Source: Alphaproteobacteria bacterium
GTDB taxonomy: Bacteria; Pseudomonadota; Alphaproteobacteria; Micavibrionales; Micavibrionaceae
Length of the DNA: 48,220 nt
NCBI GenBank assembly: GCA_024275825.1
Contig: JAJRYK010000002.1
Span: 1 to 48,220, forward strand
Reading direction: 5' to 3'
This document shows positions 3,873 to 27,357 of this stretch, piece after piece. How positions within the stretch are numbered: the stretch's first letter is position 1; every line of letters starts with the position of its first letter. The translations under genes and the position numbers were made by a program. Under the pieces are notes generated by a model. The model saw only the letters and a program-made list of their open reading frames with translations, was not told the origin of the DNA and ran no database searches.

Positions 3873-3903
3873 AACTGCTTTCCCCGCGAAAGCGGGGACC
3901 TGT
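3873..3903 (+). repeat. palindromic repeat A, copy 1
   Basis: About 31 bases built on the hairpin CCCCGCGAAAGCGGGG, flanked by ACTGCTTT and ACCTGT. A near-identical copy in the same orientation lies at 4244-4274. The two bracket the GIY-YIG gene between them, and this copy ends eight bases before its ATG. Confidence 0.85.
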
Positions 3904-3910
3904 ATCTATT

Positions 3911-4186
3911 ATGTATTACGTATATTTTCTAACCAATAAAAATAAAACGGTTCTCTATACTGGCTTTACAGGTAATTTGGTGGAGCGCACTGCGCAGCAC
4001 AAAGCCGGGCAAGTCAAAGGCTTTACGAAAACATATAATGTAAATCTTCTTATCTACTATGAAGAATTTGAAAATGTCTCTGATGCAAAAGCCAGAGAAA
4101 AGGCTGTTAAAAAATGGAACAGGGCGTGGAAGGAAGAGCTGATTAATGCATCTAATCCTGATTGGAATGAGGTGCTTATACTGTAA
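3911..4186 (+). CDS. small GIY-YIG domain endonuclease
   Basis: Single-domain GIY-YIG protein of 91 residues, the UvrC-like nuclease fold without accessory domains. The GIY and YIG strands are YYVYFL (2-7) and LYTGFT (15-20). Arg26 is the likely catalytic arginine, and the acidic metal site is probably the Glu of the REKAVKKW helix. The family's NPDWNE tail is present. The gene has low GC compared with fabI and aroC. It is framed by two direct copies of palindromic repeat A, so it looks like an inserted cassette of about 400 bp. In-vivo targets of these proteins are unknown. Confidence 0.9.
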   Translation: MYYVYFLTNKNKTVLYTGFTGNLVERTAQHKAGQVKGFTKTYNVNLLIYYEEFENVSDAKAREKAVKKWNRAWKEELINASNPDWNEVLIL

Positions 4187-4243: not shown

Positions 4244-4274
4244 AACTGCTTTCCCCGCGAACGCGGGGACCTGT
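4244..4274 (+). repeat. palindromic repeat A, copy 2
   Basis: Same orientation and nearly the same sequence as 3873-3903; the loop reads GCGAACGC instead of GCGAAAGC. It closes the GIY-YIG cassette and lies 23 bases before the thioesterase ATG, just upstream of its AGGAAAG ribosome-binding site. Confidence 0.85.
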
Positions 4275-12193: not shown

Positions 12194-12526
12194 ATGCCAC
12201 ATGAAGGTGGATGCAAGAATGATTGGGAATGTCAAAAAGTTGCTTTTGCTGCTCACCTTAAAGAAGGTCGAAATTACCTGATTAAAGGTGCCGGGACAGG
12301 TGTAGGAGAAAATATAGGGTATGGTGATGTGGTGGAAACCGTTCCGTTTGAAGAAGCGATGCGGGCACTTGAATGTTTTGAGAAACGCGTAACGGCGCAA
12401 GGTGGGAAAAAGATGCGTACTTCAAAGTTTCGGTTGGCTGTTCATGGAGATTACTACAAACGATTCGAGAAGCTTTTAAAAACGCCTAAGCCCGCCGCGC
12501 AAGAACATACTCCGCAAGTTCGATAA
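12194..12526 (+). CDS. hypothetical protein, 110 residues; may start upstream with an in-frame stop
   Basis: I do not recognise a family. The protein is mixed-charge with a Gly-rich segment (KGAGTGVGENIGYGD) and a Cys trio (GGCKNDWECQ ... LECFEK), and has no membrane segment. Upstream, ATG 12140 has a good AAGGAAG ribosome-binding site and is in the same frame. It meets TAA at 12179 after 13 codons, then continues FIFK into this frame. So either translation starts at 12194 without a good ribosome-binding site, or the gene carries a nonsense codon. Its last 41 bases overlap the 3' end of ispA tail to tail. It sits oppositely oriented between ispA and dxs. Confidence 0.55.
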   Translation: MPHEGGCKNDWECQKVAFAAHLKEGRNYLIKGAGTGVGENIGYGDVVETVPFEEAMRALECFEKRVTAQGGKKMRTSKFRLAVHGDYYKRFEKLLKTPKPAAQEHTPQVR

Positions 12527-13394
12527 GCATATCCGCGCGATTACCAAAGATTTTTAAATGACGCACGGCTTGGGCGACGAGCATTTCGGCGCGGCCTCTG
12601 GCGGCTTCGGCGCCCATGGTGGAGACGAAGGTGGCTTTGCCGGCTTCAATGTCTTTGCCGGTGTCTTTGCCGGTGTCCTGGGGGTCTGCTTCGACATCGA
12701 GAATATCATCGGTGACCTGGAACGCTAGGCCAAGGTCGTGGGCATAGGCACGCAGCGCGCGGCGGTGCGGATCATCAGCCTTGCCCAATATCGCGCCGGA
12801 TTCGCAGGCGAAGGCCATCAGTTGGCCGGTCTTCATGCGTTGCAGGCGGGAGATCGTGCCCAGATCAAATTCTTCCGTTTCGCCGATCAGATCGAGCATT
12901 TGGCCGCCAACCATGCCGTGGCTGCCGGTGGCCTTTGCCAGTTCGCGCACTAAATTACAGCGGACATTGGGATCAGCATGCGTGTCACGGTCAGAGAGCA
13001 CTTCAAAAGCGAGGGTGAGGAGAGCATCACCGGCGAGAATAGCGGTGGCCTCGTCATATTGTTTGTGCACAGTCGGATGTCCGCGGCGCAGAGAGGCATC
13101 ATCCATCGCCGGCAAATCATCATGGATGAGAGAATAACAATGCATGAATTCAATCGCCGCAGCGACGCGGCGCGCGCGCGAGCTATCGACATTGAACAGA
13201 TAGGCAGAGTGAATGGCGAGGAAGGGGCGCAGGCGCTTTCCACCATTGAGCGTGCCATGACGCATGGCATCATAGAGGCGTGCCTCAGCCAAATCCGTCT
13301 CGGGCAAGAGCTTTTCAATCGTCAGATTAACGCCGCGAACGACATCGTCCATGGCGTCCTGGAGTTTCGGGCTGGCGTCACGTGGTGATGGCAT
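12486..13394 (-). CDS. ispA: polyprenyl (farnesyl) diphosphate synthase
   Basis: Class I prenyltransferase that elongates dimethylallyl-PP with isopentenyl-PP to farnesyl-PP. The first aspartate-rich motif DDLPAMD is at 92-98 and the second, DDILD, at 229-233, with GGKRLRP at 51-57. Length 302 is typical. A 12-bp tandem duplication at 12651-12674 gives a repeated DTGK at residues 240-247, just after the second motif. It lies between xseB and dxs as in many alphaproteobacteria. A nuclease cassette now separates it from xseB, and an opposite-strand gene separates it from dxs. Confidence 0.94.
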   Translation of the reverse strand: MPSPRDASPKLQDAMDDVVRGVNLTIEKLLPETDLAEARLYDAMRHGTLNGGKRLRPFLAIHSAYLFNVDSSRARRVAAAIEFMHCYSLIHDDLPAMDDASLRRGHPTVHKQYDEATAILAGDALLTLAFEVLSDRDTHADPNVRCNLVRELAKATGSHGMVGGQMLDLIGETEEFDLGTISRLQRMKTGQLMAFACESGAILGKADDPHRRALRAYAHDLGLAFQVTDDILDVEADPQDTGKDTGKDIEAGKATFVSTMGAEAARGRAEMLVAQAVRHLKIFGNRADMLIELAEYVLARRA

Positions 13395-13430
13395 TTTTAG
13401 GTGTCCTTTTTTATTTTTTTTGCTGATTTT

Positions 13431-13472
13431 GTCATTGCGAGGAGGGCTTTAGCCTGACGCGGCAATCCAGTT
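13431..13472 (-). repeat. palindromic repeat B, left copy of the GIY-YIG cassette
   Basis: GTCATTGCGAGGAG followed by a divergent centre and CGCGGCAATCCAG. It is the inverted partner of 13763-13803 and abuts the stop codon of the GIY-YIG gene. Confidence 0.88.
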
Positions 13473-13760
13473 TCAGCAGAGTGTTTCGTATAAGTCATTC
13501 CAATTTGGATTAAAACCTTCAATTAATGCTAACTTCTTTTTTCGTGATCCGGCTTTAATCTGTTTTTCGCGTATGATCGCGTTCTCTATGTCATCAAAGA
13601 CTTCATAATATACCAGTAAATGGCAATTATATTTAGCAGAAAATCCTTCTGCGTTCTTATTTTTATGTTCGAAAATTCTTTTTCTTAAGTTTGACGTTAC
13701 GCCTGTATAAAGTGTTCCGTTTCTTTTATTGGCTATAATGTAAATCGTAGGGTGTTTCAT
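13473..13760 (-). CDS. small GIY-YIG domain endonuclease inside an inverted-repeat cassette
   Basis: GIY-YIG single-domain protein of 95 residues. The strands are TIYIIANK (5-12) and LYTGVT (17-22). The catalytic Arg is probably Arg28 in NLRKRIFEH, and the acidic site is in REKQIK near residue 65. The FNPNWNDLY tail matches that of the copy at 3911-4186. Base composition is AT-rich compared with xseB and ispA. Two inverted copies of repeat B abut the gene within 2 bases on each side, so gene plus ends form a compact unit of about 373 bp. It sits inside the xseB-ispA operon in the same direction, which keeps transcription continuous. Confidence 0.9.
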   Translation of the reverse strand: MKHPTIYIIANKRNGTLYTGVTSNLRKRIFEHKNKNAEGFSAKYNCHLLVYYEVFDDIENAIIREKQIKAGSRKKKLALIEGFNPNWNDLYETLC

Positions 13761-13762
13761 CG

Positions 13763-13803
13763 TTTCTGGATTGCCGCGTCGCTACGCTCCTCGCAATGAC
13801 GGT
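13763..13803 (+). repeat. palindromic repeat B, right copy of the GIY-YIG cassette
   Basis: TTCTGGATTGCCGCGTCGCT followed by ACGCTCCTCGCAATGAC, the reverse complement of the copy at 13431-13472 apart from the centre. It lies two bases upstream of the nuclease start codon, where its ribosome-binding site would be, and seven bases beyond the xseB stop codon. Confidence 0.88.
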
Positions 13804-13809
13804 GTGGGT

Positions 13810-14049
13810 TTACTCTTGGTCCAATGGCTCTGTTTTGAGCGCACCGTCTTTGTTTATTGTTATTTTCTCGATTTTGGCTTTGGCATCGCTGAGTTTAGTT
13901 TCGCAATGCTTTTTCAGCGCGACGCCGCGCTCATAGGCTTCGATCGATTTCTCCAGCGGCGTGCCGCCTTGCTCCAAATCGCGTACGATAGCCTCGAGCT
14001 GGGTGAGGGCATCTTCGAAGCTGAGTGTTTCAATTTGTTGTTGTGGCAT
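13810..14049 (-). CDS. xseB: exodeoxyribonuclease VII small subunit
   Basis: Small helical subunit of 79 residues that assembles with XseA into the single-strand-specific exonuclease VII. The core SFEDALTQLEAIVRDLEQG, with PLEKSIEAYERGVAL and a lysine-rich C-terminal helix, is diagnostic. The length is usual. It is normally adjacent to ispA and dxs, and is here separated from ispA by the GIY-YIG cassette. The xseA gene is not in the window. Confidence 0.94.
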   Translation of the reverse strand: MPQQQIETLSFEDALTQLEAIVRDLEQGGTPLEKSIEAYERGVALKKHCETKLSDAKAKIEKITINKDGALKTEPLDQE

Positions 14050-26919: not shown

Positions 26920-27008
26920 GCGGCCGTGGCGGAATTGGTAGACGCGCAGCGTTGAGGTCGCTGTGGGAGTTAAATCCCGTGGAGGTTCAAGTCCTCTCGG
27001 CCGCACCA
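26920..27008 (+). tRNA. tRNA-Leu (anticodon GAG)
   Basis: The acceptor stem GCGGCCG pairs with CGGCCGC, and the gene encodes the terminal ACCA. The anticodon stem CAGCG/CGCTG encloses the loop TTGAGGT, giving anticodon GAG. A long variable arm (TGGGAG...CCCGTGG) and the T loop GTTCAAGTC are present, as expected for a class II leucine tRNA. Total length is 89 bases including CCA. Confidence 0.97.
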
Positions 27009-27117: not shown

Positions 27118-27357
27118 ATGAGATATGTATATATTTTAAAAAGCCTATTTAATCCTGAGCATTTTTATGTTGGAAGCACAAATGATTTGGATAGGCGATT
27201 GGCAGAGCATAATGCTGGGCAATCGGTTCATACAAATAAATATAAGCCTTGGGCGATAAAAACATATTTGGCTTTTTCTGATGTTGAAAAAGCAGATAGT
27301 TTTGAGGCTTTCTTGAAAACAGGTAATGGTCGCATTTTTGCCAAAAAACGTCTATGA
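27118..27357 (+). CDS. small GIY-YIG domain endonuclease, tRNA-adjacent type
   Basis: GIY-YIG protein of 79 residues with RYVYILKS (2-9), FYVGST (16-21) and the catalytic-Arg segment DLDRRLAEH. The C-terminal [17 protein letters not shown] is typical of the branch often found beside tRNA genes, and it differs from the NP-W tail of the other two copies. Its stop codon overlaps the lipB start (ATGA), so the two reading frames are coupled. The upstream DNA is a hairpin array following tRNA-Leu. Composition is AT-rich. Confidence 0.88.

Follow-up and report, generated by a model that had tools for sequence, protein, structure and literature searches.

The CGTC REPs, described by Di Nocera, De Gregorio and Rocco (2013; PMC3733652), are palindromes having a [CT]GTC tag at one end, a stem initiated by AT and a CCA tail, with stems of 8-9 bp and loops of 4-5 nt. 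In the available passages of that paper, they are reported mainly from Alphaproteobacteria, Micavibrio included, and frequently form dimers, mostly of the HH kind, with spacers of about 20 bp and more. According to the same passages, the superfamily is apparently without a dedicated transposase: no tyrosine transposase gene is flanked by CGTC sequences, and the other transposase links are few and fortuitous (PMC3733652).

The cassette and its flanking palindromes

The window, meaning the whole stretch of 48,220 nucleotides analysed here, comes from an alphaproteobacterium of the Micavibrionaceae. The original prediction had described a cassette at 13431-13803, and both its sequence and its coordinates are correct. 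This unit of approximately 370 bp comprises a single-domain GIY-YIG nuclease gene (13473-13760, minus strand, 95 aa) between two CGTC-type REPs. The left REP (13431-13470, plus strand) has the tag TGTC at 13430-13433, facing outward, followed by an outer stem ATTGC/GCAAT and a CCAG tail; the right one (13766-13800, minus strand) is inverted relative to it, its CGTC tag being read from 13801 to 13798 on the minus strand. Both are imperfect palindromes reading GTCATTGCGAGGAG..GCAATCCAG, and their arms pair between the two REPs in inverted order with 100% complementarity, over 15 nt (13456-13470 / 13766-13780) and again over 14 nt (13431-13444 / 13787-13800). It had been proposed that both repeats lie within 2 bases of the start and stop codons, which holds for the left repeat, 2 bases from the stop codon, but not for the right one, separated from the start codon by 5 bases (13761-13765). 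The exact sequence CATTGCGAGGAG is found twice in the window, both times in the cassette, and six times when up to two mismatches are allowed, against 6.1 by chance; thus, the inverted pair is notable, and not the density of the repeat.

On the minus strand, the nuclease gene stands between an upstream host gene (13810-14049) and a downstream host gene (12486-13394, the tblastn query), which we take to be xseB and an ispA-type polyprenyl synthase gene, respectively, all three sharing the operon direction. The ordinary family identity that had been assigned to the protein was confirmed, as PF01541 is the sole family matched, with 60.2 bits against a cut-off of 22.6, and Y7, Y18, R28, E65 and N84, presumably the catalytic positions of the GIY-YIG domain, are each conserved in at least 103 of 105 homologs (Y18, E65 and N84 in all 105). 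A domain search found no DDE or HUH/Y1 transposase domain in this 95-aa protein.

As far as tested, the cassette palindromes appear to fit the published CGTC-tagged superfamily, and the repeats themselves are not new. The unpaired [CT]GTC tags stand at their outer ends as TGTC and CGTC, and the ATTGC..GCAAT stem and CCAG tail agree with the published stem and tail. The predicted fold of the two window REPs has five outer pairs and a variable inner helix, and these inner stems are longer and more variable than the 8-9 bp reported in the available text (PMC3733652); many REPs of relatives, such as GTCATTCCCGCG..GCGGGAATCC, look nearer to the published stem of 8-9 bp and loop of 4-5 nt. Another difference is the presence here of a nuclease gene between two REPs, the term GIY-YIG being absent from the main text of PMC3733652 in its available form.

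In the genome of the window, ATTGCGA-type REPs are repeated, with 12 copies against none in the reversed control. Seven gene-less REP dimers were seen in the loci fetched from this genome, which cover part of it, all having outward tags like the cassette; their spacers measure 20-24 bp in six cases and 2 bp in one, compared with 299 bp in the cassette, and single REP copies occur as well (L013). Considering all loci, neighbouring REPs have their tags outward in 138 cases and inward in 91, the HH orientation being undefined in the available passages of PMC3733652, and no convincing helical period was found in the spacers of 138 dimers.

Recurrence of the REP pair and its relation to the nuclease

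One scan of a species-level genome collection returned 177 relatives of the nuclease, and the best 80 were kept, with approximately 15 phylum-level names in the titles of their records. Motif-free local alignment of the 250-bp flanks gave inverted matches with a score of at least 16 at 38 of the 80 loci and in 4 of 584 control windows taken from these same loci, and direct matches in the same test at 39 of 80 and in 9 of 584. A REP caller made 417 calls on these loci, against 52 on the reversed sequence, and the REP density, which is 12.5 per kb in the nearest 50 bp around the gene, decreases to 0.34 per kb at 1.6-3 kb. The tags face outward on both sides, upstream REPs being 38 plus and 2 minus, and downstream ones 53 minus and 7 plus. 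Outward REPs within 100 bp on both sides were found at 42 of the 80 genes (the best 80 of 177), compared with 2 of 311 neighbouring ORFs (Fisher p 1e-31). A further set of 57 genes, 29 from relatives and 28 from the phylum, with one more cut by a contig end, has outward pairs at 22 genes against none of 98 ORFs. In a later set drawn by profile, without ORF controls, such pairs are less frequent, being found at 12 of the 66 genes taken at class level and at 8 of the 33 from viral contigs.

No REP was called within 100 bp at 7 of the 80 and 8 of the 57 genes, nor at 15 of 78 in a set that overlaps the 57, and many genes have one REP only. In the profile-drawn set, no REP was called at 24 of 66 class-level and 15 of 33 viral-contig genes (39 of 99 together), and 28 of these 39 genes have another inverted repeat with a score of at least 14, a score reached by chance in 5 of 584 windows at an earlier setting with longer flanks. 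The REP caller misses AC..GT stems, REPs with two changed stem bases and the Sphingobium palindromes. As for other small GIY-YIG genes of the same relatives, none of 18 has a REP pair, and one, in the genome of the window, has a single REP; this control comprised 17 genes of apparent UPF0213/YhbQ type and one other, 19 having been fetched and one lacking a match. Thus, the link with REPs belongs to the cassette subfamily, and not to GIY-YIG genes or small genes generally.

In IMG/VR, 37 viral contigs (L306-L342) encode the nuclease family, with a called REP within 100 bp in 18 of the 33 measurable; the unit may ride on phages, or these contigs may hold host DNA. Among phages, only distant GIY-YIG proteins were found, in 11 records. 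In Planktothrix agardhii p1 (L256), the nuclease has an MmeI-type restriction enzyme on one side and DISARM drmA on the other, several REPs of the CTGAG type lying nearby, and beside the nuclease of Rhizobium CIAT894, REP pairs lie in a tandem of approximately 271 bp (L242:2306-2875).

A cognate matching of nuclease and REP stem is strongly supported by sequence comparison. Stems vary greatly from one element to another, but the first eight stem bases are identical left and right in 45 of 69 two-REP elements, the mean difference being 0.54 bases against 2.68 for shuffled partners. Over 105 proteins, protein and stem distances are correlated (Mantel r 0.336, above every permutation), and in 54 of 65 cases the nearest protein from another phylum or class, as labelled in record titles, goes with the same stem class, compared with a mean of 32 and a maximum of 45 in permutations. 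In the most stringent control, with the stems permuted within genomes only, the nearest protein of another genome agrees in 43 of 57 cases (mean 24.1, maximum 38); host composition is not expected to cause such agreement. Many genomes have two to five of these nucleases, often with different stem types, some pairs sharing one (G018, G029 and G257). Copies within a genome have a mean identity of 48%, as between genomes, and a maximum of 69%; thus, the full cassette would rarely multiply inside a genome.

A column scan located the strongest stem signal at residues 70, 71, 72 and 75, in a stretch where K69, R73 and K76 hardly vary. In the cassette nuclease, residues 69-76 read KAGSRKKK, with codons at 13533-13556 (minus strand), and in its confident AlphaFold model (mean pLDDT 94.4), they span the end of helix 58-70, a turn and the start of helix 73-83. 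ATTGCGAG stems go with K[AG]GSRKKK, CCCGC stems with KKWNRxWK, CCGGC stems with K[ED]WKRxWK, CTGAG stems with KGxxRx[KYR]K and, in three cases, CTGGx stems with K[ND]MxRx[DE]K. When protein pairs of equal identity outside the motif are compared, about 3 to 4 of the 8 motif residues differ if the stems are different, and about 2 if the stem is shared.

For the hold-out, two other phyla had been named beforehand, and class-level and viral-contig genes were used instead (104 loci, 5 cut by contig ends and 4 broken or of odd length); 42 genes have a canonical REP, and 39 were left once near-identical ones had been removed. Among these, residue 75 gave stem position 7 correctly in all 38 genes with W, K or R there (p 4e-7), comprising 32 with W75 and no A and 6 with K/R75 and A at this position; in the training set, A at position 7 occurs in 54 of 54 cases with K/R75 and in 4 of 60 with W75. 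The gain for the whole stem was modest, the neighbour by motif predicting it with a mean Hamming distance of 1.99 against 2.45 for the rest of the protein (p 0.039), 2.15 for the whole protein and 3.35 for a random training gene; the random-column control had 5 columns, not 8. In addition, all 4 genes with G71 have the predicted G at position 4, a base also present in 7 of the 35 genes that lack G71. The hold-out list further suggested a rule for proline 72, which the training set does not support. A tree of the 95-aa protein built without the motif columns has at least 17 changes of REP class and at least 16 of residue 71, with one supported independent pair, which leaves the test no power for so short a protein. 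Covariation alone points to residues 69-76 as the part by which the nuclease may read its cognate stem.

The window has a second GIY-YIG gene of the same subfamily (3911-4186, plus strand), with the motif KKWNRAWK as read from its translation. The palindrome TCCCCGCGAAAGCGGGGA, without a GTC tag, lies upstream (3873-3903), and a direct copy with one base changed lies downstream (4244-4274), these 31-nt repeats being 97% identical. Their stem is CCCCGC, and KKWNRAWK goes with CCCGC stems elsewhere, so that the combination would agree with what the code predicts, although the palindromes are untagged and direct; perhaps they are REPs that lost the tag. The third GIY-YIG gene (27118-27357), of another subfamily, has a weak T5orf172 match. 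It starts 110 bp after tRNA-Leu (26920-27008) and shares bases with the beginning of the gene that follows, presumably lipB. Therefore, the claim that two other GIY-YIG genes sit against palindromes with other cores stands for 3911-4186 and is not convincing for 27118-27357, which overlaps its neighbour and has no REP nearby. Elsewhere in the same genome, a uvrC-like GIY-YIG frame (L006, G000:C46:2764-2991) has an in-frame TAG, reading 622 aa with one stop, either a real mutation or an assembly error.

Gene-less sites, REP numbers and the possible spread of the unit

We consider it reasonably probable that the unit is a copy of a minimal mobile element, made of two outward-tagged CGTC REPs and a GIY-YIG nuclease spreading them. 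In this mechanism, the nuclease would recognise the stem of its own REP type via residues 69-76 and would cut or nick REP-bounded DNA at the palindromes, and host repair would copy the cassette and gene-less REP-spacer-REP dimers to new intergenic places. The gene-less dimers would then be the non-autonomous relatives of the cassette with the gene, in the same way as REPINs relate to RAYT genes, but with an unrelated enzyme. The class of minimal mobile elements put forward in the original prediction holds in that the REP pair recurs widely, covaries with the nuclease and is absent together with it, whereas the cutting and spreading of the repeats by the nuclease is what we infer.

Regarding the insertion site, xseB loci were read in 30 genomes (that of the window and 29 relatives), out of 56 with a match. 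In 28 relatives, xseB and ispA are adjacent, separated by 3-175 bp, and none of these 28 junctions contains a GIY-YIG gene or a REP; one relative has no ispA next to xseB. As both gene and REPs are absent at these junctions, they look like a joint insertion in the lineage of the window. This agrees with the expected empty site and with the proposal that the cassette interrupts a normally tight operon while keeping its direction; a gene in the same place without repeats, which would have spoken against it, was not seen, since only the window's own locus among the 30 has the gene there.

In seven strains of Sphingobium, the cassette stands on plasmids between fnrL and a response-regulator gene, as read directly at four loci and deduced from full-length identity for the other three; one of the seven has a 1-bp frameshift. 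The cassette is missing from four strains, and two of these sites keep one fused palindrome: TomTYG64 has a palindrome with a tag at each end, corresponding to the outer halves of both REPs joined, and TomTYG74 a similar double-tagged one with a few changed bases. The site of TomTYG65 has a different, untagged palindrome, ATTCCAGC..GCTGGAAT, and that of TomTYG72 an unrelated short sequence. The double-tagged palindromes, of the form GTC-stem-GAC (L252 and L254, fnrL to response regulator), look like remnants of a collapsed REP pair, a possible footprint of loss. In Azospirillum lipoferum 4B, sufB-sufC is interrupted by the gene together with a complete REP dimer on either side of it, and the four junctions read in A. 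ramasamyi, B510, A. oryzae and A. argentinense, with matching flanks of 91-96.5% identity, are short and have neither REP nor gene. Both sites show presence and absence of the unit at one place among close relatives, as for insertion sequences, and not which event occurred, the exact ends being unreadable.

In Shinella, two gene-less plasmids were considered as empty sites, but the divergence of their intergenic region prevents the ends from being placed; in S. zoogloeoides XJ20, the genes on both sides overlap, and neither the nuclease gene nor a REP lies between them. No empty site was found in plasmids for Rhizobium CIAT894, and in the Rhizobium K1/93 series all eight records covering most of the query carry the gene. 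Directly abutting repeats showed no target-site duplication in 45 two-REP elements, without excess over shuffled partners.

GIY-YIG enzymes are generally known to be hydrolytic nucleases, and not strand-transferases. The nature of this enzyme family, the lack of target duplication in the 45 elements and the rarity of multiplication within genomes stand against the mobile-element reading, as do the 3 of 16 REP-rich Pseudomonadota genomes without a detectable nuclease, the nine of 16 relatives with ATGCCCGC-type REPs that have no nuclease next to one, the many genes with one or no REP and the palindromes at 2 of 4 gene-less Sphingobium sites. The absence of target duplication and of near-identical copies fits a slow, repair-mediated spread with horizontal arrival better than a cut-and-paste transposon.

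Another explanation is a free-standing homing endonuclease, which would cut gene-less REP sites so that repair from a REP-gene-REP copy inserts the gene; the REPs would be targets and homology arms rather than transposon ends, spreading by another route. Free-standing GIY-YIG homing enzymes are known, the nuclease model resembles the I-TevI catalytic domain (Z 5.8), and a double-tagged palindrome, which may suggest a recognition site intact in the absence of the gene, is seen in two of the four gene-less Sphingobium sites, TomTYG64 and TomTYG74. However, such a palindrome could just as well be left by a deletion running from the 8-mer ACCCCGGG of one REP to that of the other, and there is no REP to home into at xseB-ispA (28 of 28) or at Azospirillum sufB-sufC (4 of 4 read), which makes homing an unlikely account of the unit.

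The mobile-element reading also bears on REP numbers. Among 58 relatives, GTCATT..AATCCAG matches increase with strong nuclease matches (Spearman 0.58, p 2e-6; GIY-YIG counts transcribed by eye), the nuclease being present in all 18 relatives with at least 9 REP matches and nuclease-less genomes having at most 8. In 299 Pseudomonadota genomes, it is present in 13 of 16 with at least 5 ATTGCGA-type REPs and in 59 of 283 others (p 1e-6, kinship ignored). Both counts run contrary to repeats being equally common without the nuclease, which the original prediction had named as evidence against itself. The three REP-rich exceptions (G168, G344 and G248) indicate that REPs can persist without a detectable gene. 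For ATGCCCGC-type REPs, found in 16 relatives, inspection by eye placed the nuclease directly beside one in seven, including the three highest copy numbers (25, 23 and 7), and not in the other nine, with up to 5 copies.

These numbers also touch the possibility of an enzyme that processes or limits REPs and travels with them, for example by resolving cruciforms at REP dimers, while replication slippage or another enzyme would spread the REPs and joint transfer would maintain the linkage. The best fold neighbours of the model in VIA-align, all with Z below 8, are UPF0213 1zg2 (Z 7.1), which is also the single match by sequence in the PDB (E 0.0019), and Slx1, a nuclease of branched DNA (Z 6.9), followed by the UvrC and I-TevI catalytic domains; these first two neighbours would suit such a function, as would full cassettes that seem not to multiply within genomes. 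On the other hand, REP counts rise with the nuclease rather than fall, and the gene sits inside an outward-tagged repeat pair, as cargo would, so that this role is regarded as quite improbable.

It is very doubtful that the nuclease is a passenger, with CGTC REPs being the substrate in trans of a RAYT (Y1 transposase) or some other transposase, even if RAYTs are linked with GTAG REPs in the available parts of PMC3733652 and PMC8266576 and the genome of the window has a partial Y1 transposase match. A RAYT-type transposase (PF01797, Y1_Tnp) is present in 3 of 9 relatives with at least 14 REP matches, all nine having the nuclease, compared with 14 of 49 others, and is absent from G028 and G029, with 37 and 50 REP matches. 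Thus, RAYTs do not explain the repeats, and a RAYT as mobiliser of CGTC REPs is not supported; moreover, a passenger is not expected to covary with the stem, and the absence of tyrosine transposase genes flanked by CGTC sequences, as given in the accessible passages of PMC3733652, points the same way. Lastly, a coincidence, in which a small gene falls between two REPs of a REP-dense genome, can practically be dismissed, as although 111 of 311 neighbouring ORFs have a REP within 100 bp, it is contradicted by the pair counts, the orientation bias, the subfamily control and the covariation.

Significance and comparison with known systems

In the open-licence PMC literature, as far as its texts were accessible and with preprints outside the scope, no link of GIY-YIG genes with REPs was found, including PMC12306157, PMC6006769, PMC12455944 and PMC9465073; publication elsewhere is possible. 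It is about an even call whether CGTC REPs, one of the two large REP superfamilies, are mobilised by single-domain GIY-YIG nucleases, which would make a new class of minimal selfish elements in approximately 15 phyla, with residues 69-76 as a simple recognition code. As part of this reading, the proposed code would associate G71 with GCGA stems, K/R75 with A at position 7 and W75, in most cases, with a base other than A there. Within the W71 type, position 6 would mostly be C for K70 and G for E/D70, and, from three cases, M71 with D/E75 would stand for CTGG stems. The CGTC REPs, said in the available passages of PMC3733652 to lack a dedicated transposase, would gain a specific enzyme partner, matched stem by stem in many phyla, and an open question about them becomes testable in vitro. 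If the code is real, these would be very small sequence-reading nucleases with specificity set by few residues, and an explanation would be at hand for many scattered genes whose annotation says no more than 'GIY-YIG nuclease family protein' or 'excinuclease ABC subunit C'.

Compared with small GIY-YIG proteins of the UPF0213/YhbQ type (1zg2), the cassette protein has the same single GIY-YIG domain and a similar length, while none of the 18 other small GIY-YIG genes compared in the genomes of the relatives, 17 of which look like that type, is flanked by a REP pair. The T4 Seg genes and I-TevI offer a likeness that we take to be that of a small GIY-YIG nuclease gene behaving as a selfish insertion, and we know of no flanking palindromes for these homing genes. 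The specificity of homing GIY-YIG enzymes comes largely from an added DNA-binding part, whereas the cassette protein corresponds approximately to the catalytic domain alone. MITEs and IS elements have terminal inverted repeats and short gene-less derivatives, in which they resemble the cassette; it differs from them in having no target duplication and no DDE or HUH transposase.

The REPtrons (RAYT/TnpA-REP, with GTAG REPs), as described in the available text of PMC8266576, have in common with the cassette a gene flanked by REPs, coevolution of enzyme and REP, and many gene-less copies. The differences are that the cassette enzyme belongs to the GIY-YIG family, and not to the HUH tyrosine transposases, and that its tag is YGTC, and not GTAG (PMC8266576). 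The cassette is not a REPtron, as it has neither the HUH enzyme nor the GTAG tag, but works like one, sharing the flanking of the gene by its repeats and their covariation with the enzyme.
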